A stretch of 64,000 nt of DNA from Akkermansiaceae bacterium (GTDB lineage Bacteria > Verrucomicrobiota > Verrucomicrobiia > Verrucomicrobiales > Akkermansiaceae), in NCBI GenBank assembly GCA_017798145.1, contig CP059069.1:4077226-4141225 (forward strand). The letters are read 5' to 3'. A program made the translations under genes and the position numbers. The notes beneath the pieces are model-generated. The model made no database searches. It was not told the DNA's origin and worked only from the letters and a program-made list of their open reading frames with translations. Positions 4,356-50,051 of the stretch are shown one piece after another (the stretch's first letter is position 1; every line of letters begins with the position of its first letter).

Positions 4356-7300
4356 TCACCGCAGGTCTTCCGGTGCCCTTCGCCTGCGCAGTCGCCCTGT
4401 GTAGGGTTCGTCTTCTCCCTCATCCGCCATTGGGGAAACGAAGTCCTCAGTGGGCGTGAGGGTTTTCCCGTGGATGTCAGTGAGCGCGCCATCCTCGCCG
4501 GCCTTCACATCCGCCACCTTGTACACCGGGCCGTTGCGCTCCAGCGAGTCGGTGCCGTACTCGCCGGTGCTGGCTTTTTGGTAGAAGGGTTTCATCTCGT
4601 CCAGGGAGAACGGCCGTGAGCCGCGCCGCCCGAAGACCACCGTCTGGTGGCCGCTTTCATCGACCACGCGGTCGCGGTCCAGGCCGCGGGAAATCGTCAG
4701 CGCCGCCGCCTTGGTCGGGTAGGTGGCTATGAGTTTCGGGTTCGGCACCGGCGAGAATCCCATGTGCCCGGGGACGTTTTCCGGTGAGATCATCTGGATC
4801 ACGCGCATGCCGTTTTTCCCGTCGGCAACAAGAGCGTACATCGAGGCGCTGATGGATCCGATCTGCACGTCGCGGGCATCGTTGATCGCGCCGTCGGCAT
4901 CGAAGTTCTTGATCAAACGGGGTTTCTCCGGGTTCTTGATATCGATCATAGCCAGGCCCTGTGTGCCGTTGGCCGCGTAGAGGTATGTCCGGGCGGCGTA
5001 GAGGCCGTTCGCATTCCCGAGGGAAACGCTTGCGCCGGCGATGGGGCGCGGGCTGGCGGGATCGGAAACATCGAAGACCTTCACGCCCTCCGCATCGGTG
5101 ACGAAAAGGTAGCGCCATTGGACCGCCGACTGCCGCGCACCGTGCAGCGCGGGTCCGGTGTAGGTGCAGGCGAGCTGCGGACTGAGCGGATCCGCCGCAT
5201 CGACGACGGCCAGCCCCTTGTCGGTCGTGATGTAGATCCACTGCCCGGCCATGTTGGCGTGCCGGGCGCCATCCAGTGCGCCGCCGGGATTGAAGACCAC
5301 GTCTTTTTTGATGAAATTGTTGTCGGGGTTGCCGTCGAGCATCGTTGCGACATCGGTGACGATGAGGCCTTCCTCAAGATCGGTGATGAAAGCGTAGCCG
5401 TGGTAGGAGGCGATGGGCTGCTCCTCGTTTTCCGGCAGGCGCTTGCGTTTCGGATCGTTGATCAGGGTGCTGGGCAGGGCTACGGAGGTGGCGTAGGGCG
5501 TGCTGAAAAAGGTGTCGTGACCGAGCGGTGAGAAAGGTGTGGCGATGATGCGCTCGGAGAAATTCTTGTTGTCGATGTTGGCGATGTCGAAAATGCCAAA
5601 ACCTTTTTTCCCGAGGGCGGCGTAGAGGTATTCGCCGCGGTGCTGGAGATCGGTGACGGTGCCGCCCTTGGCTGGGTGGTGGTAGGAGGTATCCAGGATG
5701 GAATTCCCGTCCAGGTGTTTCTGATGGAAATCAGGGTAGGCGTAGCGGTGGAGGTGGCTGCCGATCGCCGCCTGCGGCTCGCTGCGTTCCGTCCAGGCAA
5801 CCCCGCTCAGGCCGTGGTGATCGGTGCCGACGAATGCGAAGCGCCCGAAGAAATTCACCGTGCCCGTGCCAAAGCCGAGCAGCTGGGTCATGATCGCGTT
5901 GTTGTCGTTGGTATCGGAAATGTGGCAGTCGGTGCAGTTCTTGGTGGTGCCGACCCCGCTGGTGGTATGGGCGAAGTGGGGGTTGAAAGCCTGGCCGGAA
6001 TAGCCTTCCGAGGAAACCGTCTGCTGCTGGGTGTAGAACCACTCGCGGTTCGACCCCTGGGAGCCGACGAGCATGGCGCTCGATGAGCGCAACACTGCTA
6101 GACGGTTGCCTTTGACCGTGGAGTCCTTGCCGAGCATGAAGACATCGTCGCGCACCACCTGCGGGTTGTAGGAGGAGTAGTTGCGCGTCGTCGTGCCCTC
6201 GAACTTGTTTGCCGCCATCTTGTAGTTCGCCTCCATCGGGATGTGGCAGCCGAAACAGCTCGTGGCCCATGCGGTGTGGCAGGTCTGGCAGTCCATCGCC
6301 TCGTTGCTATGGGCGAGCTGCTGGCGGCATTTCTTCGGGTCGTCCGGGACGCCGCCCCAGCTCTTGCCATCGCGGTTGAGTGTCTTCGCGTAGGCGCTCA
6401 TGGCATTGTAGTGCTGGGAGCCGGGATCCACGGTATCGAGCGTCTGGGGAATTTCCCAGACCAAGCCCTTTTCCATGGAGGACTGCTGGTAAAGCCTGTC
6501 CCCATCCCAGCGGAAACGCGGCCCGAAGGGGGTGTTGCTTTCCTTGAGGTCGATGGGGACGACCTTCCCATCCTTGGTCAGCTCGCCGCCGGTGCCGGAG
6601 GTGACGAGGGATGGCCGTGCATTGGCGGTGCCGTGGCAGTCCACGCAGGTGATCGCCGTGGCCGCGCGCGGCTCGACGTAGAGCAGGCCGTTGCCGTGGA
6701 CGTCGTTGAGGAAATGGCAATCCACGCACTGCATCCCGAGGGCGAGGTGGATGTCCTTCATGTGGACGGCCTTTTTGAACTTGTCCTTGTCGCCGTGGGC
6801 GATCTTCTCGCCGGACTTGGTCAGGAGGTTTCCCTCGCGATCCTTCTTGAAGATCGCCCGGAAGACCCAGCCGTGGCCGTGGTAATCGGCAAACTGGGTG
6901 TCCTTGAGCCTGGGGTTGAGCTCGGCGACCTTTTCGAGGAAATTCACATCGCCCCATAACCCGCGTGCGGCGGCGGCCTCGGGGTTTTTCCGCAGGGACT
7001 CAACCATTTCCCCGTCGGTCGGGTATTTCTGTTTTTTCGGATACATGTGCTCTGCGTCGGATTCCTGATCCCACCAGGTGTAGCCGAGATAAGGGTTCAC
7101 GAAGAGGTTCCCCTGGTGCATGTGGCATGTCATGCATTGGCTCGATGGGATGCTGCGGGTGAACTTGTGCTCGATGGGATGGCCTTTCTCCTTTTTCGAG
7201 ATCATCGGATCCGGGTTGAAGGAAAGCCCCTGGTTGCCGTAGGCGCTGTACCAGCCGGAATTCGAGGGAGAGCGGTCATTCGCGTAAACTACGTGACATG

Positions 7301-8252
7301 CCGTACATCCGCTTGAGCGGTAGTCGCCGGCTCGGTCGTTGGAGCCGAAGAAATCCAGCAGCGGATCGTGCAGGCGGGTCTTGTGAGCGCCGATGATGAC
7401 CGGATCGACGCGCGAGAGCGTGCCGAGGCCGCGCTCGCCGAGGCGGCGCAGCGGCCTGCCGGGAGGATCGAAGGGATCGGGGTTGCCGAGATCCAGCAGC
7501 CTTGTGCCGCCTTTCTCGAAGATGCGGTAGATGTTGCCTGTCTGGCCGACGTTGAAACGGGGCAGTGGGAAAATCTCATCGACGATCCCCATCTTTTTCA
7601 TCTCCTCCTTGGGGTATTTGAACGGGCTTTTCAGGGCGAGCGGAGCGCCGTTCGCGCCGTATGCCTGGCCGAAGATCGAGTCCTTGGCCGGGAATGCGCC
7701 GTTGTTGTAGGCCGCCGCGCCCCACAGCATCGCGCCGTGGCGCATCATGCTGTGGCCGACGTTGTCCACTTCCTTGGCATGGCAGTCGCCGCAGGTTTTC
7801 TTGGCCACCCGGAGGTCGCCGGGATTTACGAATTGGATGAACTCCTCGGACTCATGATTGAGCAGGACCGTGCTGTCGCTTGGGTTTGCGGAGCTTTCGA
7901 AGAACACCGGATTGCGCGGCTCCACGTGCGCCTGCCTCATCGTGAGGCCGGGGGTCGCATCGCCGCCATGGCAATCGGTGCAGCCCAGCCGCACAAACTC
8001 GCTGCCGTGCGGATCGTGGGAGTTCTCATGGCAGTCGATGCAGCCGCGGCTCTTCGCCATCTGCGCGGCCTTGGATTGGTCCACCTTGTTCGGCCTGGGG
8101 ATCGCGACGGATGTCGGCGCGGCTTCGCTGGCGGCCGTCCGTGGGCCGAACAGGCTGCGGTATTCCGTTTCCTGGGAAAGGGCGGGCAAAGAAAGGAAGG
8201 CCGCGGCGAGTGCGAGGGCGGCGAGGGGGCGTATGGCTGGATAATGGGTCAT
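4356..8252 (-). CDS. Large decahaem cytochrome c with C-terminal LVIVD beta-propeller
   Basis: 1298-residue exported protein. A signal peptide (IRPLAALALAAAFLSLPALS) precedes ten CXXCH haem-c sites: CIDCH, CTDCH, CGDCH, CTACH, CMTCH, CVDCH, CVDCH, CQTCH, CFGCH and CTDCH, spread from about residue 71 to 830, with many free histidines as distal ligands. The last 400 residues hold no haem site but repeat the LVIVD-type pattern (GLAVVDAADPLSPQL, GVKVFDVSDPASPRP, GLAMIDIKNPEKPRL), predicting a beta-propeller. The start at 8252 overlaps the porin stop by one base (TGATG), so the two are coupled. Being last in a cytochrome-porin-cytochrome operon suggests an outer-surface electron-transfer terminus; the substrate is unknown. 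A longer upstream frame is only porin-gene shadow. Confidence 0.88.
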   Translation of the reverse strand: MTHYPAIRPLAALALAAAFLSLPALSQETEYRSLFGPRTAASEAAPTSVAIPRPNKVDQSKAAQMAKSRGCIDCHENSHDPHGSEFVRLGCTDCHGGDATPGLTMRQAHVEPRNPVFFESSANPSDSTVLLNHESEEFIQFVNPGDLRVAKKTCGDCHAKEVDNVGHSMMRHGAMLWGAAAYNNGAFPAKDSIFGQAYGANGAPLALKSPFKYPKEEMKKMGIVDEIFPLPRFNVGQTGNIYRIFEKGGTRLLDLGNPDPFDPPGRPLRRLGERGLGTLSRVDPVIIGAHKTRLHDPLLDFFGSNDRAGDYRSSGCTACHVVYANDRSPSNSGWYSAYGNQGLSFNPDPMISKKEKGHPIEHKFTRSIPSSQCMTCHMHQGNLFVNPYLGYTWWDQESDAEHMYPKKQKYPTDGEMVESLRKNPEAAAARGLWGDVNFLEKVAELNPRLKDTQFADYHGHGWVFRAIFKKDREGNLLTKSGEKIAHGDKDKFKKAVHMKDIHLALGMQCVDCHFLNDVHGNGLLYVEPRAATAITCVDCHGTANARPSLVTSGTGGELTKDGKVVPIDLKESNTPFGPRFRWDGDRLYQQSSMEKGLVWEIPQTLDTVDPGSQHYNAMSAYAKTLNRDGKSWGGVPDDPKKCRQQLAHSNEAMDCQTCHTAWATSCFGCHIPMEANYKMAANKFEGTTTRNYSSYNPQVVRDDVFMLGKDSTVKGNRLAVLRSSSAMLVGSQGSNREWFYTQQQTVSSEGYSGQAFNPHFAHTTSGVGTTKNCTDCHISDTNDNNAIMTQLLGFGTGTVNFFGRFAFVGTDHHGLSGVAWTERSEPQAAIGSHLHRYAYPDFHQKHLDGNSILDTSYHHPAKGGTVTDLQHRGEYLYAALGKKGFGIFDIANIDNKNFSERIIATPFSPLGHDTFFSTPYATSVALPSTLINDPKRKRLPENEEQPIASYHGYAFITDLEEGLIVTDVATMLDGNPDNNFIKKDVVFNPGGALDGARHANMAGQWIYITTDKGLAVVDAADPLSPQLACTYTGPALHGARQSAVQWRYLFVTDAEGVKVFDVSDPASPRPIAGASVSLGNANGLYAARTYLYAANGTQGLAMIDIKNPEKPRLIKNFDADGAINDARDVQIGSISASMYALVADGKNGMRVIQMISPENVPGHMGFSPVPNPKLIATYPTKAAALTISRGLDRDRVVDESGHQTVVFGRRGSRPFSLDEMKPFYQKASTGEYGTDSLERNGPVYKVADVKAGEDGALTDIHGKTLTPTEDFVSPMADEGEDEPYTGRLRRRRAPEDLR

Positions 8253-10738
8253 CAGAAAGTCATGGTTGCGCTGAGGAAGCCGCTGTAGAGCACCCCGTCG
8301 ATATCGCCGGAGCCGCCGCTGCTGAAGCCGCCCGCAGCGGGGTTTGAAATGCGGTAGATATCCTTGAGGCCTTTTCCGGGAAACAACATGCCCAACCCGG
8401 CGACGAGCCTGACATTGTCCGTGAGATAGGGCCTGTATTCCATGCCGAAGCTCAGATCCCAGCCGATCTCCCGATCTATCCCTCCAGTGAGCAAGGCTGT
8501 GGAAAGCGGATCCGTTTCCATGAACAGCATGTAGTTGAGGTTGGCGAAAAAGCGAAGCCTTGGGGTCAGCTCCCACTCCTCTCCGATGCCCGCGATGAAA
8601 ATGCCAGGGTTCACAAAGCTGGATTGGCCGAGGAACTTGCTGGAGCGCAGGTTCGGGATGAGGCTGAGGCGCTGCTTGAGCGCCACCGCCGTTCCTCCGA
8701 GGTTGGGCCCCTGCCGCTGCCAGTAGCTGAATGGGCCGCCGACGAGATTCGGGCTGTCCACGATCGAGTCCCAGCCCTTGGCCGTGCCGTCCGTTGCGTC
8801 GTCATCTCCGGATGCCCAGAAAAATGTGAGCTTGTGGCGCATCCAGTCGGTGTCCACGGAAAGCTCAAGCGCGGCCATCCATGCGTCGATGTCCACCGAT
8901 TGCCCGGCGAGTCCGTTGAGATCGTCCTCGCCGAAGACGTGGTAGAGCGAGTGGCTGATGTTGAGCCGCCCGAAGTGACCTTCTCCGTTCCAGCCGAGGT
9001 AGTAGGCCTCAAGATCATGGGCTGCGATCGTGCCGATGGGGGTGGGCCGGGCGATGTTGCCCGCGCTGTCGAAGGTCAGGCCGGCATCGCTGCCCTTATC
9101 CCAATTCGCCAGAAAACTGATTTGTGAGGTGTAGCCTTCGATGAAAAGATCCTGCCAGTAGAGGTTCGCCACAAACACCGTCTGGTCCCGGTCATCCCAG
9201 GTGTTGAGCTCGGAAAACGACTCTTTCTCAAAGAGGTCGAAGAGTGCGATGTTATATTGGATGCGGTTCTTGTTGAGGTTTCCCAGCAAGCGGTAGCCCC
9301 AGTTCGAATCGAAGAACACGTGGCCCCGGAAATCCGCGTTGAAGGTCTGGGTGCCGACGCGCATCGCGGCGAAGTCGTAGTTTTCCGAGACATCCAGCAG
9401 GTGCGTCTCTAAGAAAAACTGCTGGAGTGCGAAGTGATTCTGGAAGCGCTCGGTGGCCTTTGATCCCCGGAAATCGCCGCCTGCGGGGAAGAGCAGGGGA
9501 TCGAGGAAGAAATCGATGTCTCCGGGGTTGAGGCCGCCGGGGTTGGTGCCAAATCCGCTGGGTGGTGCGCTGCCGGTGGATTGGTTGAGTCCGCGCGGAT
9601 CGGGGGAGATGAGGCTGGTTTCGTCCACCGAGACGTAGTTGGTGTTGAACACGGGCTGGATGCGGAACAGCCACTCGACGGGCTTGAAGGAGGTCTCACC
9701 ACGGAAGAGGTCGAAGGTGAGGCTGGTGTTGGTGACGATCCCAGCCTGCTCGCCGCGCCCGTAGAACTCCGCGTTCCCCCCCCGCGCCGTGCTGACACCC
9801 GCAGGGGTGGGTATGGAGCGCGTCTCCAATTCCGAGAAGCTCTGTAGTGTGAACGAAGCGAAAATGTCCTGCCCGCGTACCGGGACATCGCCCTTGTATT
9901 TGCTCTGGTAGTAGGGATGCCAGAGATAGGGGGTGCTGCGGGCGTAAGGCGTTTCCGCGATGCTGTCGTCCTCGTAGCGCTGCCATTTTCCAGTGGCGAT
10001 GTTCCAGCGGTCTTCCACCGAAGTCATGTTCGCGGGATCCTCCGCATGGTCGTAGTGGCCGGCGTGCCAGTGCTCGTAGATGCGCTCCTCGAAGCGGATA
10101 TCGCCGCGCGGCAGCTCGAAGGCTTTGGTGATGTCCGGATCGAAGGGCTCCTCCGGGCCGTGCTCCACGATCTCGATGTCGATGCGATTCTGCTCCACGC
10201 CTCGGCGGGGCAACACCATTCCCTCGGGGATGTCCGGGACGAACCTGCGCCCGCCCTGCGTGAAGCCCGCATCGTTCCCGAAGAAGCCGCTGTTACCCGG
10301 ATCCGCGTCGTTTTCGAAGAAAGGCCGCTTGGTCAGGCCGGACTCGTTGAAAAATGGGTTGTCGCGTCCTTCCGTGACGGGCTTTTCCTCGTCAACGGTT
10401 TCCTCGGTCCAGCCCTGACCGGGGTCAGGGTTGAACTGGGAAGGCGGCAGCGGCGGCTCTTCGGTGAGGATCGTTTCACGCCCGATGCGGAATTCGGAAA
10501 AAGGGTTTCCCGGCCTGCGGTTGGCGGCTCCGGCATCCGGGGAGAAATCGGAGGGCGCGGCGGGGGGTTGGGTGGCGCGTTGCTGATGCGCGGTTAGCCG
10601 ATCCGGTTTTTTCTCCCCCGGTTCGAGATCCCAGTCCGGGGTCCGCCGGTGAGGCGGGTGGTAGCAGGTCGTCATGAGCACAACGCCAACGCAGGTGGCG
10701 GTGAACCTACCGCTGGTCTTGGGGCTGGTGTTGTTCAC
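8252..10738 (-). CDS. Outer-membrane beta-barrel protein of a porin-cytochrome operon
   Basis: 828 residues. A hydrophobic export segment near residues 11-25 is followed by about 230 Pro/Asp-rich residues and then alternating amphipathic strands with many aromatic residues, ending LSATMTF; a terminal Phe is the usual outer-membrane assembly signal. No haem motif is present. It sits between two multihaem cytochrome genes, 30 bp after one and overlapping the next, the arrangement of porin-cytochrome conduits (MtrAB- or OmbB-like), though I see no recognisable MtrB sequence motif. The inferred role is an insulating sheath that lets a cytochrome pass the outer membrane. The GTG start at 10738 is used because an upstream ATG runs into a stop after six codons. 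Confidence 0.8.
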   Translation of the reverse strand: MNNTSPKTSGRFTATCVGVVLMTTCYHPPHRRTPDWDLEPGEKKPDRLTAHQQRATQPPAAPSDFSPDAGAANRRPGNPFSEFRIGRETILTEEPPLPPSQFNPDPGQGWTEETVDEEKPVTEGRDNPFFNESGLTKRPFFENDADPGNSGFFGNDAGFTQGGRRFVPDIPEGMVLPRRGVEQNRIDIEIVEHGPEEPFDPDITKAFELPRGDIRFEERIYEHWHAGHYDHAEDPANMTSVEDRWNIATGKWQRYEDDSIAETPYARSTPYLWHPYYQSKYKGDVPVRGQDIFASFTLQSFSELETRSIPTPAGVSTARGGNAEFYGRGEQAGIVTNTSLTFDLFRGETSFKPVEWLFRIQPVFNTNYVSVDETSLISPDPRGLNQSTGSAPPSGFGTNPGGLNPGDIDFFLDPLLFPAGGDFRGSKATERFQNHFALQQFFLETHLLDVSENYDFAAMRVGTQTFNADFRGHVFFDSNWGYRLLGNLNKNRIQYNIALFDLFEKESFSELNTWDDRDQTVFVANLYWQDLFIEGYTSQISFLANWDKGSDAGLTFDSAGNIARPTPIGTIAAHDLEAYYLGWNGEGHFGRLNISHSLYHVFGEDDLNGLAGQSVDIDAWMAALELSVDTDWMRHKLTFFWASGDDDATDGTAKGWDSIVDSPNLVGGPFSYWQRQGPNLGGTAVALKQRLSLIPNLRSSKFLGQSSFVNPGIFIAGIGEEWELTPRLRFFANLNYMLFMETDPLSTALLTGGIDREIGWDLSFGMEYRPYLTDNVRLVAGLGMLFPGKGLKDIYRISNPAAGGFSSGGSGDIDGVLYSGFLSATMTF

Positions 10739-10768
10739 GGCTTGCTGATGTCCATGGTTCGGGCGATC

Positions 10769-11887
10769 CTAGGGAGCTGATGATAGGGCTTGGGCGACAA
10801 TACCAAGCTTTTCGGAAAATCCGCCGGATACGGCGGCATCGAAAGCCTTGGGCGGCATAGCGGCATCGAAAAGATCGTTCACCAGCCCGTCCGCGATGGG
10901 TTTTCCGCAGGTTTCGTTGAGCCGATCTATGGCCAGGGCGAGGCGTTCCGCGTAGTGCCCTGCCGCCCACATCCGATGATCCTCGGCTACCGAAGCGAAG
11001 GCACCCTTGCCGAAAGGTTCACGGTTTCCGGCAAGGCGGGTGAGGATGGCCAGCGCCTCTCCGTCTTTGGCGGGTTGGGCGGAAACACGTTTCGCATAGG
11101 CATCGGCCTCGGAGACGAGGGTTTCCCCTATGCCGGGAAACTCCGCGCCCGCCGCCCTGAGCAGTTCCTTGATCGCCTCGATCTCCGCCGTCCGGATCTC
11201 GCCCGGCTCACGCAGCGCCTGGGCGGCGGACTCGCGCAGGGCGACGGCCTGTCCCACCAGCCATGTCCGGGCATTGGAAAAGCCCTCCTCCTCGTGCCAG
11301 TGCTTCGGCTGGGCAACAAGGAGGCCGTCGAGTTCGAAGACCAGCGGCGGGTGCTTCGCGGCGACAAGCTCGTCGCTGAGGTTCTGGTGGCATGCCACGC
11401 AATTGTTGGCGCGTTGGTAAGCGCTGCCGAGCTGCCGCATGCCGAGCTGTGCCAGCGCATCCCTGGGGAAATCGTCGCGGGTGTGGGAGAGGATCCAGTT
11501 TTCCGCCCCTCCGTGGCAGTTCGCGCAGCTCACGCTATTCATTTCACGGGCGCGATCCGCACCGGCCGCGAACATTGACGGATCCACCTGTCGGTTGGGG
11601 GCATGGCAGATTGTGCAGCTTTTGGATTCCGCAGCCCCATCCAGCCCCATCTGGGCGGCCATCGCCTTGGACCTGCCGTTCCCTAGGGTCGCGGCGGAGG
11701 AGGTGTGCGGATCGTAGTTCAGCCAGATCGAATGCGCACCCCTGTTAGGGCCGGCCCCGCCGTGGCAGCCGCTGGTGGCGCAGGAATCCGCGCCGAGTAT
11801 CCTCGACCCGCGCGCCGGCTCGGCATGGGCCGCCCCGCAAAGGCAGACAAAAACCGATGCCGCCATTGATCTGGGAACGCTTCTCAT
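10769..11887 (-). CDS. Secreted multihaem cytochrome c (c554-like)
   Basis: 372 residues. The start at 11887 gives a classical signal peptide (MRSVPRSMAASVFVCLCG ending AHA) and has AAGG nine bases upstream; a longer in-frame extension to 12040 is rejected. Haem sites in order are CATSGCH (a CX4CH spacing), CTICH, CANCH and CVACH, all in the first 190 residues, giving three standard and one atypical site. The C-terminal half is helical with many Ala/Glu and a conserved-looking HRMWAAGHYAERLALA. The haem spacing suits a small periplasmic electron shuttle of the cytochrome c554/tetrahaem kind. First gene of the minus-strand operon; 30 bp separates it from the porin gene. Confidence 0.85.
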   Translation of the reverse strand: MRSVPRSMAASVFVCLCGAAHAEPARGSRILGADSCATSGCHGGAGPNRGAHSIWLNYDPHTSSAATLGNGRSKAMAAQMGLDGAAESKSCTICHAPNRQVDPSMFAAGADRAREMNSVSCANCHGGAENWILSHTRDDFPRDALAQLGMRQLGSAYQRANNCVACHQNLSDELVAAKHPPLVFELDGLLVAQPKHWHEEEGFSNARTWLVGQAVALRESAAQALREPGEIRTAEIEAIKELLRAAGAEFPGIGETLVSEADAYAKRVSAQPAKDGEALAILTRLAGNREPFGKGAFASVAEDHRMWAAGHYAERLALAIDRLNETCGKPIADGLVNDLFDAAMPPKAFDAAVSGGFSEKLGIVAQALSSAP

Positions 11888-12064
11888 CTTGGTAAACCTT
11901 GTGATTCGCCTTGCCTGTATGGCAAGCCATTTCATGTCTTTCCAATCGGATAAATATGTTAAATGATAATTTTCTATCATGCAGGGAAGTTTGCGTAATT
12001 TCCCATCGACAGTTTTTTCGGGGCTGGATAGCCTATCCAAGCCTGTGAATCGGCGAAAAAGGTT
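11888..12064. promoter_or_regulatory. Divergent promoter region with three palindromes
   Basis: The 177-bp space between the two electron-transfer operons is AT-rich in its middle and carries three perfect dyads: CTTGCC-TGTAT-GGCAAG at 11910-11926, ATGATA-ATTTTC-TATCAT at 11963-11980, and TGGATAG-C-CTATCCA at 12025-12039 (extendable by GGC/GCC with one bulged A). They are placed as operators for a shared regulator would be. No confident -35/-10 pair could be fixed. Confidence 0.55.
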
Positions 12065-13363
12065 GTGGACACTGAAAATCTGTTAGGACTGGTATCCTCC
12101 AGTCCCCTGCTTGCCGTCGGGCTCACCGGGGGGACGTTGATGGTCGGTTATCTGGCGACCCAGTGGTGGGCGGTGGGAAGCCGGGCGCGCACCGAGCGGA
12201 TCCGCAGCCGGCTTGAGCTGGAGATTCTCAGGAAAAAGATCGAGGCGCTCGACAAGATGGCTGCGGCGGCACCCGAGGTGGCGTGGAACGGTTTCCGCAA
12301 GTTCACCGTGGCAAGGAAGGTGCTGGAATCCGAGGACACATATTCCTTCTACATGAAGCCGCACGACGGCAAGCGCCTGCCACCCTTCAAGCCCGGCCAA
12401 TACCTGACCTTCCAGTTCCACCTCCCGGGAAAACCCAAGCCGGAGATCCGCTGCTACTCGCTCTCCGATGGTGCGATCAGCGACGGGCACTACCGGGTCA
12501 CCATCAAGCGCGCGCTCCCGGACAAGAACCACAGGAGCTACGATCCGGCCAGGGTCGGCCTGATATCCAGCCACTTCTGCGACAACGTCCGAGAGGGCGA
12601 TATCATCGACACGAAGGCTCCTTCCGGGAAATTTTATCTCGATGTGGAGGTCGAGCGCCCTGTGGTGCTGATCGGCGGCGGCATCGGAGTGACCCCGATG
12701 ATTGCGATGGCCCGTTACCTGACACATATCGGGGACAAAAGGGAGATATATTTCTTTTTCGGATGCCGCAGCGGGCAGGATCATATGTTCCGCGAGGAGA
12801 TGATCGAATTGCAGAAATCGAATCCGAAGATGAGGCTGCATGTGTGCTACAGCCGCCCGGATCCCAGCGATGAGCCGGGCAAATCGTTCAACCACGAGAG
12901 CCGCGTCACCGTTGGCCTGATCAAGGAGATCCTCCCTTCAAGCAACTTCGAATACTATCTTTGCGGGCCGGGGGCCTTCATGGACAGCCTGGTCAACGGA
13001 TTGTATGAATGGGGGGTGCCGAAGAAGGATGTGTATTTCGAAGCCTTCGGGCCATCCACGGTGAAGGCGGTGCCGAAGGGGCCAGCCGCAGGCACAGGGG
13101 CGAGTGTGGTGGACATCGAGGTGGAGTTCTCAAAGTCCGGGAAGAAGCTCAAATGGGATGCACAGGCCGGCAACCTTCGGGATTTCGGGAACGACAACGG
13201 CATCGACATGGGCGGCTTCTGCGGAGCGGGGAGCTGCACGGAATGCATGGTTGCCATCAAGGAGGGCGAGGTGGAGTACCCGGATAGCGCCGCCGATGTG
13301 GAGGAAGGATGCTGCCTGCCCTGCCTCTGCCGACCCAAGGGCAAACTGGTAATCGACGCCTAA
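12065..13363 (+). CDS. Membrane-anchored FAD/NAD(P)H reductase with C-terminal 2Fe-2S domain
   Basis: 432 residues. One N-terminal membrane helix (about residues 12-32), a short basic/acidic coil, then a ferredoxin-reductase module: FAD-binding motif RCYSLSDG at about 140, NAD(P)-binding VVLIGGGIGVTPMIA at about 200 and YLCGPGAFMDSLV at about 298. A plant-type [2Fe-2S] domain ends the protein with CGAGSCTEC (CX4CX2C) and the final cysteines in CCLPCLC. It should oxidise NAD(P)H on the cytoplasmic side and pass electrons to the Fe-S protein encoded 9 bp downstream. The GTG at 12065 is the only start before the helix. First gene of the plus-strand electron-transfer operon. Confidence 0.88.
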   Translation: MDTENLLGLVSSSPLLAVGLTGGTLMVGYLATQWWAVGSRARTERIRSRLELEILRKKIEALDKMAAAAPEVAWNGFRKFTVARKVLESEDTYSFYMKPHDGKRLPPFKPGQYLTFQFHLPGKPKPEIRCYSLSDGAISDGHYRVTIKRALPDKNHRSYDPARVGLISSHFCDNVREGDIIDTKAPSGKFYLDVEVERPVVLIGGGIGVTPMIAMARYLTHIGDKREIYFFFGCRSGQDHMFREEMIELQKSNPKMRLHVCYSRPDPSDEPGKSFNHESRVTVGLIKEILPSSNFEYYLCGPGAFMDSLVNGLYEWGVPKKDVYFEAFGPSTVKAVPKGPAAGTGASVVDIEVEFSKSGKKLKWDAQAGNLRDFGNDNGIDMGGFCGAGSCTECMVAIKEGEVEYPDSAADVEEGCCLPCLCRPKGKLVIDA

Positions 13364-13372
13364 GCGAACAAC

Positions 13373-15136
13373 ATGGCAGCAAGCGACATCTCATTGGCCG
13401 AACTCACCCGCAAGGCGGCCAAGCCCGACCGTTGGGACGACCCCATGGATCCGAACATGACGGATGCGGATGTCGAAGGCTTGATGGCGGTGGAGCCGTT
13501 TTGCGTGATGGACGAGAAGGCGTTCCCCTCCTCCATGCCGCTGCGCGAAATCCTCAGGGCGGATACCGCGATCCGCAGCTATCAGCCGGGCGAGATCGTC
13601 GTGCGCCGTGGGGATTACGGCACCTCCGCATACCTTGTTCTCGGCGGCGAGGTGGAGGTGATCCTCAAGCCGCACCTAGATCCGCGCCTCCTCGGGCGGG
13701 CTGCGACCGAGAAGAAGAAGGGCTTCGTTTCCCGCCTGGCGCAGCTTTGGTCGAACAATCCGGAGCCGGAGGGTTGGGACGAGGCCTCGCTGCGGGTCAG
13801 TGACGATTTCAAGAACTCGGTGAACTCGGAGGACAACTCGGTTTTCCTACAGGATTTCCCAAGGGTGATTTCAACCACGGAGACGGCGAAGCTGCACGAG
13901 GGTCAGATGTTCGGGGAAATTTCCGCACTGAGCCGAATGCCGCGCACGGCGACCGTGGTGGCATCCGCGCAGGGCACGCGGCTCCTCGAGTTCAGCTGGC
14001 AGGGTCTGAGGGACCTGATGAGATACGATGTGGCGCTCAAGGGGCAGATCGATTCGAACTACCGCAAGTACTCGCTCAGCTCCTTCCTGGCGAAGCTGCC
14101 CTTGTTCAGCCACATGGAGGTGAACAGCCCGCAGTTCCACGCACTTTGCAATGAGGCCCAGCTTGAGACCTTTGGCGATTACGGGTGGTCCGGGGAATAC
14201 AAGAAACTGGCGGCCGGTGGGGATCCGGACACCAAGGCCACAGAGCCTCTCGTCGTCAAGGAGGGTGAGTATTGCAACGGCATCCACCTCGTGCGCGCCG
14301 GGTTCTGCAGGGTGAGTCAGAAGTATGGGGGCGGGGAGAGGACGCTCAAATACATCGGTGCGGGCCAGGTGTTTGGCTTCGATGATGTGGTGAGGCAGCG
14401 TGTGAATCCGGAACAGGATGCGGTGTCGCTCTTCACGCTCCGGGCGATGGGTTATGCGGATTTGATTTTCATCCCAACCGCCACGCTCGTCCGCTACGTC
14501 CCTTCCCACCTGCTGGATGCGGATCATGCCGCAGTCGATCCCCAGGGGAAAAAGCCGAGCAAGAAAGCGCGAGCCCGCCAGGGAGATGAGCGCATCCATC
14601 CGCCGACGAAACTGATGGAATTCGTGGCGGAACAGCGGTTCTTCAACGGCACCCAGTCCATGGTGATCGACATGGATCTCTGCACCCGCTGCGACGATTG
14701 CGTGCGTGCCTGCGCCTCCACGCACGATGGCAACCCGCGCTTCCTGCGCCACGGCCCGATGATGGACAACCTGATGGTGGCCAACGCCTGCATGCACTGC
14801 GTAGATCCGGTTTGCATGATCGGCTGCCCTACGGGAGCGATCCACCGCAGCAGCCATGGCGGCGAGGTGGTGATCAACCCGGCGAGCTGCATCGGCTGCA
14901 CGATCTGCGCGAACAATTGCCCCTACGATGCGATACGGATGGTGGAGGTGCGGACGAAAAAAGGGCATTTCTGGGTGGACGAGCAGCAGAAGCCCTTGCT
15001 CAAGGCGACGAAGTGCGACCTCTGCATCGAGCAGGCGAGCGGGCCGGCCTGCCAGAATGCCTGTCCCCATGATGCGCTGACGCGCTCGGATCTCTCGCAG
15101 GAAAACTCCCTCATCCAGTGGCTGAAGAAACGATGA
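13373..15136 (+). CDS. Fusion: tandem cyclic-nucleotide-binding domains plus 4x[4Fe-4S] ferredoxin
   Basis: 587 residues. The first CRP-like sensor domain spans about 55-225, with PGEIVVRRGDYGTSAYLVLGG and the phosphate-cassette-like segment FGEISALSRMPRTATVVAS, interrupted by a loop of about 65 residues. A second, more degenerate cNMP fold covers about 235-385. No DNA-binding helix-turn-helix follows; instead residues 415-580 are a DmsB/NrfC-like iron-sulfur subunit with CTRCDDCVRAC, CMHCVDPVCMIGCPTGAI, CIGCTICANNCPYDAI and CDLCIEQASGPACQNACP, enough cysteines for four clusters. It probably relays electrons from the upstream flavoprotein to the membrane subunit, with the sensor domains gating flow or assembly. 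The stop overlaps the next start (ATGA). Confidence 0.85.
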   Translation: MAASDISLAELTRKAAKPDRWDDPMDPNMTDADVEGLMAVEPFCVMDEKAFPSSMPLREILRADTAIRSYQPGEIVVRRGDYGTSAYLVLGGEVEVILKPHLDPRLLGRAATEKKKGFVSRLAQLWSNNPEPEGWDEASLRVSDDFKNSVNSEDNSVFLQDFPRVISTTETAKLHEGQMFGEISALSRMPRTATVVASAQGTRLLEFSWQGLRDLMRYDVALKGQIDSNYRKYSLSSFLAKLPLFSHMEVNSPQFHALCNEAQLETFGDYGWSGEYKKLAAGGDPDTKATEPLVVKEGEYCNGIHLVRAGFCRVSQKYGGGERTLKYIGAGQVFGFDDVVRQRVNPEQDAVSLFTLRAMGYADLIFIPTATLVRYVPSHLLDADHAAVDPQGKKPSKKARARQGDERIHPPTKLMEFVAEQRFFNGTQSMVIDMDLCTRCDDCVRACASTHDGNPRFLRHGPMMDNLMVANACMHCVDPVCMIGCPTGAIHRSSHGGEVVINPASCIGCTICANNCPYDAIRMVEVRTKKGHFWVDEQQKPLLKATKCDLCIEQASGPACQNACPHDALTRSDLSQENSLIQWLKKR

Positions 15137-15954
15137 CACCCGCCAGGAAAAGACCGGTCGGCATGCTTGCCACGTTGCTGATCTGCGCCGTGCTGGCGCT
15201 TGCATCCCTGTGGTTCATCCCGGATTTCCCGCACCATGCCTACCTCAGCGGCTGGCTTCTCTTCGCGCTGATGCTCATCCTAACCTTTTTCAACTTCCGG
15301 AAAAAGGTGCCCTTCCTGCGCATGGGTAAGGCCAGCTTCTGGCTGAGGATGCACATCTGCCTCGGGATTTTTTCGGGTGTCCTCTTCTTCGTCCACATGG
15401 GCTGGTCCTGGCCTTCCGGATTGTTCCGGCAGATCTTCGCCTGGTGTTTCCTCATCGTCTTCGCCTCCGGCCTGGTGGGCTGGTGGATGAGCCGTTCTTT
15501 CCCAAAGAGGCTTACGGTGGCCGGATACGAAACTCCCTTCGAGCGCATGGCGGATGCGCGCAACAAGCTCCGCAAGCAGGCGGAGGCTCTGGTGCTTGCC
15601 AACGGGGAGGGCAAGAGCCCCTCGCTCGTCGCCGTCCGCTATGCGGATCTCTTCGGGTCGTTTTTCACCAAGCCATGCAACTTCTGGGCGCACCTGATGG
15701 AGTCCCGCTCGCCGCAGGCGGCGCACGCCTCGCAGTTCGACGAGATGCAGAGATACATCGAAAAGAGCGAACAGGAGAGGTTTGAGGAGTTGCGCGAGCT
15801 TGTGGCCCGCAAGCACATGCTAGATTACCAATATTCTCTCCAACTCGCGCTGCGGCTCTGGCTTTTCGTCCACATCCCACTGAGCTACTCGTTGCTGGCC
15901 TTTTCCGTGCTTCACATCATCCTCGTCCATTCGTTCTCCGCCGCCGTCTCATGA
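15133..15954 (+). CDS. Integral membrane protein, cytochrome b-like electron carrier
   Basis: 273 residues with five likely membrane helices (about residues 9-30, 36-55, 68-92, 100-120 and 235-268). Histidines occur inside or at helix ends: MHICLGIFSGVLFFVHMGW in the third, and VHIPLSY, LHIILVHSF in the last, a pattern compatible with b-haem ligation as in ferric-reductase or cytochrome b561-like proteins. A soluble loop of about 100 residues separates helices four and five. The start at 15133 (ATGA overlap with the ferredoxin fusion) is preferred over a GTG at 15118. Inferred role: move electrons across the inner membrane to the cytochrome encoded next. No confident Pfam match is claimed. 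Confidence 0.7.
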   Translation: MTPARKRPVGMLATLLICAVLALASLWFIPDFPHHAYLSGWLLFALMLILTFFNFRKKVPFLRMGKASFWLRMHICLGIFSGVLFFVHMGWSWPSGLFRQIFAWCFLIVFASGLVGWWMSRSFPKRLTVAGYETPFERMADARNKLRKQAEALVLANGEGKSPSLVAVRYADLFGSFFTKPCNFWAHLMESRSPQAAHASQFDEMQRYIEKSEQERFEELRELVARKHMLDYQYSLQLALRLWLFVHIPLSYSLLAFSVLHIILVHSFSAAVS

Positions 15955-17660
15955 AGGACAAGAAGCCATCATCCGCATTCGACAGGAAGGACTACGCCCG
16001 CCCGAACCAGGACTGGGTGTGCGGGCACCTTTGCAAGGGCGAGGCCTGCCGCATCGGCCCCTCGCCGAAGGGGAAATGCCGTGCCTCCTTCGAGTGTGTG
16101 CCGCTGCTCGATCTCAAGCCGGGCGAGGGCAAGGGGCAGTTCAAGTGCACCCGCCCGGCATCCGCCGGAGGCAGGTGCGACCGCGGCCCCATGCCGGACG
16201 GCAGCTGTTGCAACGCGATCCCGAAATGCCAGCCGCGCCGCAGCCTGCGCAACATCCGCAAGCGGGTGATCGCCTTCACGGTGATCGCCACCTTGCTCCT
16301 GCTCTGCATCGGAATCGATCACAGGACGCGCGATCGCTTCGTCAATCCCGGGCCGATCTCCAGCCCACATGCGAGCGTTCACTTTTCCGGACTGACGAAG
16401 GAGAAGTGGGGGGATCCGAGCAACTGCGCGGCCTGTCATGAAAGCGCCCGCCGCAACGCGGGGGCATGGCCGGGCAAGATCGGAGAGGCACTCAGCGGCG
16501 GCCTGTCACCCCACGCGCTCATCCGCAAGGGGCCGTCGGCACCGACGGGGATGGATAAGAACTGCCTGGCTTGCCACACGGGCAAGGATTTCCACCAGCC
16601 GAACATGGCCGTGGAATTCGCCTGCCATACCTGCCACAAGGAGCACGGGACAAGCGGCTTCATGCCGGAGGTGGCGAATTCCTCCTGTCTCGACTGCCAT
16701 GCCTCCGCAGAGTTGATGTCGAAGTCCAGGGAGATGGTCGCGGGCACGGATTATCATGCGTTCCCCTCATCGGCGGGGAAGTCGGCGGCGGACAATCCAT
16801 CGCTGCGGCGGCCGGAGGGCGGCTACACGAAGGTCATCCGGGATTTTCACGACGGTCACCCCGAGTTCCGCGTGATCCGGGACAAGGTGAGGGATGTGAA
16901 CACGCTGAAGTTCAACCACAAGCTGCATCTCTCCTCCGGGGAAATCCCGGAGCTGCATGGCAAGGCGCTGGGCTGCACGGATTGCCACCAGACGGATGCC
17001 CAGGGCGAGTATCAGCTTCCAATCACGTATGAGGAAAACTGCGCGGGGTGCCATGCCCTGCAGTTCGACAAGGACACGCCGGGGCTGACCCTTCCGCACG
17101 GGGATCCGTTCTATGTTAGATCCTTCCTCCGCAGCCTGAGCATCCAGTATGAGGAATACGCGAAGACCACGGAGGGCATCACGAGCCGGGACACGCTCCG
17201 GGAATACGTGCAGAACAGGGGCAGGAAGGTCGAGAAACTCTATCAGACCGGCGCGTACATGGAGCGCGCCGTGTTCTTCGCCGACATGAAGGGGGAGGTG
17301 CCGGGTGGCCGCCGTGCTCCCTTTGCCGGCTGCGCGACTTGCCATGACGTCTCCGAGCCCGCCGTGGACAACGGCGCGCCCGTCATCGCCAAGGTCGCGG
17401 CGCCGAACCGTTGGATGAATGTTGGGAATTTCAACCACTCCATGCACGTGAAAGGACTGAGCTGCCTGGATTGCCACAATGTGATGAAAAGCGAGCTAAC
17501 ATCCGATGTGAACCTGCCTTCGATCAAGAGCTGCGTGGATTGCCACAGCCCCGGAGGCGGCATCGACCACCGCTGCATCACCTGCCACAGCTACCACAAC
17601 ACCCCGCCCGGTTCCCTCTTCGGGGAGGGAGAAAATAAGGCGTCGGGGAAGGGGAAATGA
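15951..17660 (+). CDS. Membrane-anchored decahaem cytochrome c with Cys-rich N-terminal domain
   Basis: 569 residues. Residues 24-93 hold about 12 cysteines in two similar units, GEACRIGPSPKGKC and GGRCDRGPMPDGSC, each followed by a further Cys. A single helix (about 105-122) follows, then ten CXXCH sites: CAACH, CLACH, CHTCH, CLDCH, CTDCH, CAGCH, CATCH, CLDCH, CVDCH and CITCH. With a signal-anchor topology the haem domain is periplasmic and the Cys-rich domain cytoplasmic, so the latter may bind Fe-S or another metal and meet the ferredoxin fusion. ATGA overlap couples it to the membrane gene. NapC/NrfH-like in role, not in sequence. It ends the plus-strand operon. Confidence 0.85.
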   Translation: MKDKKPSSAFDRKDYARPNQDWVCGHLCKGEACRIGPSPKGKCRASFECVPLLDLKPGEGKGQFKCTRPASAGGRCDRGPMPDGSCCNAIPKCQPRRSLRNIRKRVIAFTVIATLLLLCIGIDHRTRDRFVNPGPISSPHASVHFSGLTKEKWGDPSNCAACHESARRNAGAWPGKIGEALSGGLSPHALIRKGPSAPTGMDKNCLACHTGKDFHQPNMAVEFACHTCHKEHGTSGFMPEVANSSCLDCHASAELMSKSREMVAGTDYHAFPSSAGKSAADNPSLRRPEGGYTKVIRDFHDGHPEFRVIRDKVRDVNTLKFNHKLHLSSGEIPELHGKALGCTDCHQTDAQGEYQLPITYEENCAGCHALQFDKDTPGLTLPHGDPFYVRSFLRSLSIQYEEYAKTTEGITSRDTLREYVQNRGRKVEKLYQTGAYMERAVFFADMKGEVPGGRRAPFAGCATCHDVSEPAVDNGAPVIAKVAAPNRWMNVGNFNHSMHVKGLSCLDCHNVMKSELTSDVNLPSIKSCVDCHSPGGGIDHRCITCHSYHNTPPGSLFGEGENKASGKGK

Positions 17661-47459: not shown

Positions 47460-50051
47460 TCAAGGACTGTAAAGCACCCGGAAGCGGCCGAAATGGGCGG
47501 GAGGCGGCGAGGGAATGTCGTAGCGGTAGGTTGTGCGCTGGTAATTGGCGTTGAAAGGGTTGCTCGTTACGGTGATCCCCGCCGGCGGCGCTCCGAAAAC
47601 CAGGTTTGTGGCCGCCTCCAGGCGGTAGTCGATCACATCCGCCCCGATGCGCTGAATGGTTTCCGCCACGAAAGCGCGGTTCGATCCGTTGACCTCGACA
47701 CGGAACACCGGCAGTCCCTTGGTTGCCGTCGCGAAATTCCCGATCACCGCGCTGTCGGCAAGGTTCGGATTCATGTTGAATGCGTATTCCTCGTAGTTGG
47801 ATACGCCGTCGAGATCGGGATCCTCGAAAGGTTCCGTGTCGGTCCCGGTCAGTCCGAACGACTCGGCGTATGCCTGCACCGCAGCCGCTCCCTGCGCCCA
47901 CAGGATATGGTCGCCCGCTTGGCTGGCCACGAAGATGTCCATATCGCCGTCGCCGTTGAAGTCCGCCGCGATGACGGCCTCGGTTGTTTGGCTCCCGTAT
48001 GTCGGTGTCTCAAGGACAAAGGACCCGGAGCCGTCGTTCGTCCATAGCTGATCCGGATTGGAGAAAAAGCCCCTGCCGAACCAGAGGTCGAGATCGGTAT
48101 CCCCTTCGAGGTCGAATGCCGCAGCGGAAGTGGTGTTGTTGCCTGTGAAGACCTGCGCGGACTCCGTGAAGGTGCCGGAGCCGCTGTTCGTGTAGAGTTT
48201 GCTGCCTCCGGAAGAGTTCGCGCAGAGGACGTCGAGCCCCGGGCTGCCATCGAAATCCCCTAGCAGGACGGCGCGGGTATTGCCGGTGCCGAGCGACTGC
48301 CCGCTGTCGGTGAAATTCCCGGTGCCATCCCCGAACCAGATGGTCGTCGGGAGATCAATGCTGCCGACAACGATATCCACGTGCGCGTCGTTGTTGATCA
48401 GCCCGACCGCGATCCCGCGCGTGTTCCCGGTGCCGAGCGCATCGTATGGGGTGAATGTGCCGGTGCCGTCGTTGCGGTAGATGCGGTTCTGCCCCGCGCC
48501 AAATCCGTATGGCGCGTTGCCCACGATCGCATCCAGGTCATTGTCTCCGTCGACGTCCGCGATGGCCACGCAACCGCCGTTTTCCGCGCCGATCAGCTGC
48601 GGGCTCATGGTGAATCTCCCGGTGCCGTCGTTGAACCACACCCGATCCGCAAGATCCGCGTTTCCTCCCCTGGGATTGTTCACGACAAGCAGGTCGATGA
48701 AATTGTCCCCATTGAAATCACCCGCGCCGATGGCTCCGTTGTTGTTCCCGAACCCGTTGGGGAGGGGGTTTGGAGTGTCCCTGAATTGGCCGGCTCCGTT
48801 GTTCCGGAGGATGCGCACGATCCCCCCTCCGTTGCCCATTGCGATATCGATGTCGTTGTCACCATCGAAGTCACCCTGCGCCAGGCAGGATGCGCTGCTG
48901 CTGCCGAATCTCTGCCCGCTGTCCTTGATCGGGCCGCCCTGGTTGACGGGCACCCGGTTCCAGAGCTCGCTGGGGTAGCCGTTGATCGCGAGGAAAAAGT
49001 CGGTGTCGTTGTCCCCATCGAAATCCGCCGCCTCGATATCGATCGCGTTGTTGATGCCGAGGGTGACGGGTGCCAGCGTGAACGTCCCCGTGCCGTCGTT
49101 GCGCCAGACCTCGTTGGGCTGGGTGGTGTTGTTCCCCACCACCGCATCGATGTCCGAATCATTGTCCAAATCCGTCAGGACCACGCAGAACGAATAGCCG
49201 TCGCCGAGGCTCTGTCCGCTGTTCGTGAACGTTCCGTTGCCATCGTTGAACCACACCTCGTTGTCGTCGGCGAAGGGCGGATTGAAACCGTCGGCCACGA
49301 ACGCGTCCGGAAAGGTGTCGCCGTTCAGGTCTGCGAACTGGATGTCAAAGGTGGTGCCGCCTCCGAGCTGCGTCGCGCTCAGCGTGAAGACACCGCTGCC
49401 ATTGTTGATCCAGAGCTTGTTCTGGCCGTTGATCGAAAGGGCGATGTCCGGAAACGTGTCTCCGTTGACATCGAACACCGTGGACGACTGCGCAAAGGCG
49501 CTGCCCAATTGCTGTCCGCTGTCCGTGAAAACGCCGTTGCCGTCGTTGAGCCAGACCTCGGTGTAGATCACCGTGCTGCCGCTCATCGGGCTGTTTGCCG
49601 GAAGCACGACATCCAGATCGTTGTCCCCGTCGAGATCGGCAAGCGAGACCGCCACCCGCGAGTAGCTCCCGCTGATCGACTGCCCGCTGTCCGAGAAATT
49701 CCCGCTCCCGTCATTGAGCCACACCTTGCAAGGGCCCAGGTGGGTGGCGAGGAAAAGATCGGGATCCCCGTCGCCATCCAGATCGCCCAGCTGGGCGGCA
49801 CCTGCAGCGGGAAGGGGGGCGGCGGTGGGGCTTTGTGTGAAGACGCCGCTGCCGTCATTCAGGAGGACTGTCCCTTCGTCGACGAGATGGATCAGGCAGA
49901 CATCGAGATCGCCGTCATCGTCAACGTCGGCGGAGGTTGAGTCGATTGCAGTTGTGCCCTTGATTTTCTCCGCCCATGCGACCTGGAATTCCGCAAGGGC
50001 GGCGAGGCTGGCGATCAGGGAGAGGCCTGTTAGGAGGATTGGTGTCTTCAT
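47460..50051 (-). CDS. Secreted FG-GAP/VCBS repeat protein
   Basis: 863 residues. A signal peptide (about 1-20) precedes 13 or so repeats of about 55 residues, each containing a calcium loop DxDxDxDxD (DVDDDGDLDVCL, DLDGDGDPDLFL, DLDGDNDLDVVL) and WFNDGTGxF-like strands, forming integrin-like beta-propeller(s). After residue 725, FEDPDLDGVSNYEEYAF and a beta-rich C-terminal domain, often seen at the end of verrucomicrobial secreted proteins, complete the chain. Likely an exported adhesion or sugar-binding protein needing Ca2+. The repeats are at protein level, not a CRISPR. The start at 50051 was set by the signal peptide. Confidence 0.9.
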   Translation of the reverse strand: MKTPILLTGLSLIASLAALAEFQVAWAEKIKGTTAIDSTSADVDDDGDLDVCLIHLVDEGTVLLNDGSGVFTQSPTAAPLPAAGAAQLGDLDGDGDPDLFLATHLGPCKVWLNDGSGNFSDSGQSISGSYSRVAVSLADLDGDNDLDVVLPANSPMSGSTVIYTEVWLNDGNGVFTDSGQQLGSAFAQSSTVFDVNGDTFPDIALSINGQNKLWINNGSGVFTLSATQLGGGTTFDIQFADLNGDTFPDAFVADGFNPPFADDNEVWFNDGNGTFTNSGQSLGDGYSFCVVLTDLDNDSDIDAVVGNNTTQPNEVWRNDGTGTFTLAPVTLGINNAIDIEAADFDGDNDTDFFLAINGYPSELWNRVPVNQGGPIKDSGQRFGSSSASCLAQGDFDGDNDIDIAMGNGGGIVRILRNNGAGQFRDTPNPLPNGFGNNNGAIGAGDFNGDNFIDLLVVNNPRGGNADLADRVWFNDGTGRFTMSPQLIGAENGGCVAIADVDGDNDLDAIVGNAPYGFGAGQNRIYRNDGTGTFTPYDALGTGNTRGIAVGLINNDAHVDIVVGSIDLPTTIWFGDGTGNFTDSGQSLGTGNTRAVLLGDFDGSPGLDVLCANSSGGSKLYTNSGSGTFTESAQVFTGNNTTSAAAFDLEGDTDLDLWFGRGFFSNPDQLWTNDGSGSFVLETPTYGSQTTEAVIAADFNGDGDMDIFVASQAGDHILWAQGAAAVQAYAESFGLTGTDTEPFEDPDLDGVSNYEEYAFNMNPNLADSAVIGNFATATKGLPVFRVEVNGSNRAFVAETIQRIGADVIDYRLEAATNLVFGAPPAGITVTSNPFNANYQRTTYRYDIPSPPPAHFGRFRVLYSP

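Follow-up and report, generated by a model that had tools for sequence, protein, structure and literature searches.

The locus described here lies at positions 4356-17660 of a stretch of 64,000 nucleotides (the window) from the genome of an Akkermansiaceae bacterium, an environmental relative of Akkermansia (contig CP059069.1, positions 4,077,226 to 4,141,225) and consists of seven genes, here called A to G, that encode redox proteins together with an outer-membrane barrel (Table 1). An initial annotation had read them as two divergent operons forming a candidate extracellular electron transfer conduit, and checks of the open reading frames (ORFs) and scans with domain libraries recovered all seven with the domains assigned to them. 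C, B and A form the left operon on the minus strand and D, E, F and G the right operon on the plus strand. Both are tightly packed, the ATG of A overlapping the stop codon of B by one base, F and G overlapping each other and nine bases separating D from E. No significant Pfam family was found for B or F, and none of the seven proteins reached a curated NCBIfam family. The parts list of the initial annotation was accurate as far as it went but missed the cyclic-nucleotide-binding domains of E, the eight-Cys domain of G, the propeller of A and an HbpS-like eighth component. Outside the locus, every other close-spaced CXXCH pair found in the genome belongs to a single pentahaem protein, thus no competing cytochrome system was seen in this genome. 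The guanine-plus-cytosine content is the same in locus and window (0.617 each) and gives no sign of a recent horizontal gain, although three other sampled congeneric species lack B and G.

Table 1. Features of the seven-gene locus and of a second cluster in a relative. Positions are those of the window unless stated otherwise; the likely start of C is the signal-peptide Met (~11887), its ORF itself extending to 12040, and residue numbers of F start from the GTG at 15118.
Feature	Position	Strand	Basis
A, secreted decahaem cytochrome, 1298 aa, 10 CXXCH, non-lipoprotein signal peptide, C-terminal LVIVD beta-propeller	4356..8252	-	motif count, Pfam, structure model
Seven-bladed beta-propeller domain of A, residues about 802-1191	4680..5849	-	AlphaFold model, Pfam LVIVD
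B, outer-membrane barrel, 828 aa, Pro-rich N-terminus, 18 predicted strands, AlgE-type	8252..10738	-	AlphaFold model
C, periplasmic c554-like tetrahaem cytochrome, three CXXCH and a conserved CX4CH	10769..~11887	-	motifs, Pfam
Divergent intergenic region between C and D	11888..12064	.	
D, NAD(P)H/FAD reductase, C-terminal 2Fe-2S domain, N-terminal hydrophobic segment	12065..13363	+	domain scans
E, cyclic-nucleotide-binding domains and four 4Fe-4S clusters (16 invariant Cys)	13373..15136	+	Pfam, alignment
Phosphate-binding cassette of E, FGEISALSRMPRTATV	13910..13957	+	Gly, Glu and both Arg invariant in 33/33 homologues
F, membrane protein, two HX13H pairs (H79/H93, H252/H266), predicted bis-haem b	15118..15954	+	
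G, cytosolic eight-Cys domain, one transmembrane segment, periplasmic decahaem domain	15951..17660	+	
Duplicated Cys-rich cytosolic domain of G, eight Cys, without Pfam family	16014..16229	+	
Second cluster of IMCC26134, followed by a very large multicopper-oxidase-like protein	L128 8423-13271 (2588-2593 kb)		

The right operon combines a flavoprotein with iron-sulfur and haem proteins. D has FAD, NAD and 2Fe-2S domains, while in E the cyclic-nucleotide-binding domains (PF00027, E 1.5e-21) come first and the 4Fe-4S domains after, with the 16 Cys kept among homologues accounting for four clusters. By its cassette with invariant Glu and Arg, E belongs to the cyclic-nucleotide-binding proteins, and ligand binding is predicted. 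The four His of F are kept in 33 homologues and lie in two hydrophobic regions, and HX13H occurs twice in 37/37 F-type proteins, the Sphingobium homologue included. This spacing is known from bis-haem b membrane proteins of the FRE/NOX and cytochrome b types, which likewise have two such pairs in membrane helices and a flavoprotein partner. F has no Pfam match to these types; its two conserved pairs in membrane regions can nevertheless be read as a bis-haem b signature. G, which matches the Cytochrome_C7 and paired-CXXCH families, has one transmembrane segment and ten CXXCH motifs, and its ten haems are met by exactly ten more ligand candidates, nine His and one Met, all of them invariant or nearly so. 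Its N-terminal Cys fall into two sets of four, seven of them being present in 35/35 and one in 35/38 of the homologues spanning the respective column. No Pfam model matches this eight-Cys region, which we place in the cytosol because it precedes the single transmembrane segment and the haem domain must be periplasmic. A quinol-linked donor of the NapC/NirT type (CymA, NapC) was not found at the locus, and no such match is reported for G.

Some genomes encode D, E and F together with a longer decahaem protein (G') that has the eight-Cys domain, often alongside a relative of C, and B was not found in them. This suggests that the D-E-F-G block is a reusable input module, feeding something else in those genomes, and that C belongs with this module and not with the barrel. 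In one such locus lacking the A-B pair, E has an N-terminal FHA domain.

In the left operon, C resembles cytochrome c554, and its CX4CH site is kept in close relatives; in more distant ones it is a CXXCH. The small multihaem cytochrome recognized by the initial annotation is confirmed, with four haem sites and four invariant extra His. Its match to NapC/NirT stays below the family cut-off and it has no membrane anchor. Since the extra ligand candidates match the haem numbers in both G and C, the two proteins look like wires without an open catalytic haem. As C also accompanies D-E-F-G' in genomes where the barrel was not found, it is probably a periplasmic shuttle rather than a plug of the barrel. 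A has at least 14 conserved extra His for its ten haems and no CXXCK. In the AlphaFold model its propeller is similar to propellers such as 1l0q and 1ri6 (Z 30), and the top Foldseek matches of A are ordinary propellers, with no MtrC-like fold among the matches listed. Sequence searches with A and B against solved structures gave no significant relative, and no relative of A was found among viral contigs. A match of A to ExtM, confined to a short haem stretch and scoring far under the cut-off of that family, was not used.

The AlphaFold model of B, based on 66 homologues, has a mean predicted local distance difference test score (pLDDT) of 74, with most barrel strands above 85. The closest solved fold is the alginate exporter AlgE (Z 28.5, 2.8 Å over 356 residues), with OprD/Occ channels ranking just under it. 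PF13372 (Alginate_exp) is matched by 6/66 homologues of B, with E down to 9.8e-6, and B of the window itself has no match. Model and sequence signal together make B a member of the AlgE barrel superfamily in fold only. It differs from AlgE by its redox gene context and long Pro-rich N-terminus. B is a barrel of the porin class, as had been proposed, and not a non-porin fold.

There is clear evidence that the genes are inherited together. Of the 289 genomes in our phylum sample, nine have B and exactly these nine have full-length G; with the other CXXCH pairs confined to one pentahaem protein, this sets the seven-gene association far beyond chance. Neither B nor G occurs in any listed member of the family's largest sister genus (genomes of 2.2-3.3 Mb). 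In 5/8 other genomes with B and G the genes lie side by side, C being divergent from D-E-F-G-B-A (one contig stops before C), and the order of the window, C-B-A divergent from D-E-F-G, is common to close relatives with 76-87% identical A. We further scanned 84,980 species genomes with A as query, and the best 80 loci are nearly all verrucomicrobial. Among these, B adjoins A in 70 of the 75 loci with room for it, and C to G are all within reach in 21. C-D-E-F-G forms one block and B-A another, and their mutual position varies while genomes keep both. The 32 genomes with separated blocks or with B away from A all have B, and 30/32 have G, the two absences of G being weak because many of these genomes are metagenome assemblies. 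The concern that homologues of the two operons might regularly occur apart is therefore justified for position but not for genome content, both being nearly always present when unlinked. Moreover, pairwise distances of all seven proteins are strongly correlated across the 21 complete loci (Spearman 0.75-0.93), which is what joint inheritance would produce. We conclude that the seven genes are one system. Carriers of the gene set include Verrucomicrobia bacterium IMCC26134 and Sphingobium herbicidovorans.

Other phyla were covered through a protein search of plasmids, where Sphingobium megaplasmids (e.g. NZ_CP020539, WP_037469316) encode a homologue of A with 44% identity over 92%. The operon there consists of C, a gene for an HbpS-like protein, B and A, and G, F and a large E run opposite. 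All parts but D thus have homologues in one place, together with the HbpS-like protein, and a locus homologous at the sequence level crosses phyla. It differs by the absence of D and by a Pyr_redox (pyridine-nucleotide oxidoreductase) domain fused to E, and this non-homologous flavoprotein in the place of D supports NAD(P)H as the input. Further differences are a CpdA-like phosphodiesterase beside G and a neighbouring two-partner-secretion pair (a ShlB-type transporter and a protein of ~2000 aa), and the genes are annotated as hypothetical or multihaem only. The N-terminus of the Sphingobium G reads, by eye, like an FHA domain.

The HbpS-like protein (PF03928), secreted and of tandem architecture, is an eighth component of the system, encoded close to the locus in about 50 relatives as well as in the Sphingobium operon. 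In the present genome its copy is unlinked (contig positions 3,494,450-3,496,105) and 72% identical to the locus-linked one of relatives. A short stretch of the window (47601-47870, minus strand) has weak similarity to an HbpS/GlcG-like domain. Likewise, a secreted NHL-repeat propeller follows directly 3' of A, with no gap, in about 27 relatives; it was not found in the 64-kb window. In nine verrucomicrobial loci a class III cyclase is located no more than 9 kb from A, and the only class III cyclase detected in the present genome is a homologue of these. Together with the cassette of E and the CpdA-like phosphodiesterase, the nearby cyclases make it likely that E is under cyclic-nucleotide control, gating electron flow by cyclic AMP or cyclic GMP.

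We favour, at a probability of roughly one half, a quinone-independent electron export chain to the outer membrane with a cyclic-nucleotide-binding component. D would take hydride from NAD(P)H and hand electrons on through its 2Fe-2S centre. E would receive them on its four 4Fe-4S clusters and probably gate the flow by its canonical cyclic-nucleotide site, and F, with two b haems, would carry them over the inner membrane. Decahaem G would accept the electrons at the periplasmic face and tetrahaem C would shuttle them to an outer-membrane unit of A and B. A, with its ten haems and propeller and presumably bound to B, would then reduce an acceptor located at the outer membrane, within it or beyond it; oxidants that are diffusible or macromolecular, for instance humic quinones or Fe(III), are the most likely candidates. 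The wiring from NAD(P)H via FAD/2Fe-2S, the four 4Fe-4S clusters and the bis-haem b protein to G and C is well supported. What the sequences themselves show are cofactor sites, topology signals, a conserved gene set and the folds of B and of the propeller; the order of the carriers is the most natural interpretation of these parts. The initial annotation was thus right to see one NAD(P)H-driven functional unit ending at an outer-membrane barrel and a decahaem cytochrome, and right that its sequences are unlike those of MtrCAB and OmbB-OmaB-OmcB. It went too far in letting these genes account for the complete path to the outer surface, given an 18-stranded, AlgE-like B and a C that is probably a shuttle rather than a plug.

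Several observations weigh against the export chain. A was modelled at a pLDDT of 64, with a clear propeller and a haem domain of low confidence, and no haem geometry was taken from this model. It is the most conserved member of the set (median 67% identity vs 44-59% for the others), and such conservation is seen more often in enzymes than in surface wires. A conserved lipobox was not found in A, with scattered motif matches in 7/89 sequences, and its location at the outer surface is tentative. Further, no cytochrome is an obvious plug for a barrel of 18 strands and AlgE-like fold. The eight-Cys domain of G is absent from some relatives and replaced in Sphingobium, and can therefore not be an obligatory wire.

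A less probable but serious explanation is that A acts as a periplasmic terminal reductase fed by the same chain, with a small soluble substrate entering or its product leaving via B as an AlgE/OprD-type channel. The substrate-channel fold of B, the high conservation of A outside its haem motifs, the missing lipobox and the constant co-presence of A and B would all fit such an enzyme. On the other hand, A has neither CXXCK nor another catalytic haem signature and its extra His suffice for ten bis-His haems, while the secreted partners (HbpS-like protein, NHL propeller) and the two-partner-secretion neighbours in Sphingobium point outward.

In their gene content, MtrCAB, PioAB, MtoAB and OmbB-OmaB-OmcB are like the present locus, as an inner-membrane multihaem protein, a periplasmic multihaem protein, a barrel and a secreted decahaem protein are encoded together. 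This analogy to porin-cytochrome clusters, and the porin-class barrel itself, would suit a classical MtrCAB-type conduit with C or part of A inserted in B and spanning the outer membrane, which we nonetheless consider unlikely. The barrel of MtrAB-type complexes has 26 strands and takes in a decahaem protein, and the 16-strand Cyc2 can hold only a monohaem plug at the barrel mouth (PMC8406198), thus B with its 18 strands should not enclose an MtrA-like wire. The multihaem candidates for insertion in B are tetrahaem C and decahaem A only, and C is also found with D-E-F-G' in genomes where B was not; no NCBIfam match of B to MtrB/PioB-type barrels was obtained. Further differences from MtrCAB-type systems are a periplasmic protein with four haems, where those have eight or ten, and a terminal cytochrome A with a propeller and no lipobox. 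In place of a CymA/NapC quinol dehydrogenase, the locus encodes an NAD(P)H flavoprotein, an Fe-S protein with a cyclic-nucleotide-binding site and a bis-haem b protein. The locus is thus not of the MtrCAB kind, from which it departs in barrel type and lipoprotein anchor, although nothing tested here contradicts its working as an electron exporter.

Verrucomicrobial clusters with a porin beside a periplasmic octahaem protein are described in He et al. 2017 (PMC5615132), which names IMCC26134 as a holder. Besides the present locus, this strain has a second cluster encoding a NapC/NirT-like protein, an octahaem protein and a 763-aa barrel without similarity to B. We had considered the present locus as the published porin-multihaem cytochrome cluster and rejected this after finding the separate octahaem cluster in IMCC26134; by haem motif count, the present locus has no octahaem protein. 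The 2017 cluster is most likely the second cluster of IMCC26134. Our literature search found no description of the present gene set, and nothing relevant on cyclic-nucleotide-binding proteins combined with multihaem cytochromes, on LVIVD cytochromes, or on alginate-export barrels combined with multihaem cytochromes.

It is very unlikely that electrons run inward, with A oxidising an external donor such as Fe(II). The hosts do include lineages usually grown aerobically, among them Sphingobium, a genus usually described as aerobic. Moreover, the porin-cytochrome systems of iron oxidisers lack an extra surface cytochrome (PMC6344600), and one may be lacking here too. However, the inner end of the chain is an NAD(P)H flavoprotein and not a quinone or an oxidase, and electrons from Fe(II) could not reduce NAD(P)+, an uphill step, unless energy were supplied. 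That two unrelated operons are simply neighbours, as the not always adjacent blocks might suggest, is scarcely credible in view of the genome-wide co-occurrence and the combined homologous locus in another phylum.

To our knowledge, extracellular electron transfer in Verrucomicrobiota has been proposed from genomes and not proven. The export chain, if correct, would provide a trans-envelope route for electrons in a phylum that abounds in lakes, peat and soil. NAD(P)H would feed this route directly, and a second-messenger site would be part of it. More tentatively, the locus may represent a distinct class of extracellular electron transfer in environmental Verrucomicrobiota and aerobic Sphingobium, linking cytosolic NAD(P)H with the outer surface independently of quinones through a cyclic-nucleotide-switched Fe-S relay and ending in an AlgE-type barrel and a propeller-bearing decahaem cytochrome. 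A, B and G form a clear marker set that can be scored in genomes, and with IMCC26134 and Sphingobium herbicidovorans as carriers, humic or iron reduction by Verrucomicrobiota would become directly testable. Elsewhere in the present genome, a third match to PF01578 (cytochrome-c assembly), at contig positions 3162831-3163418, carries an in-frame TGA.

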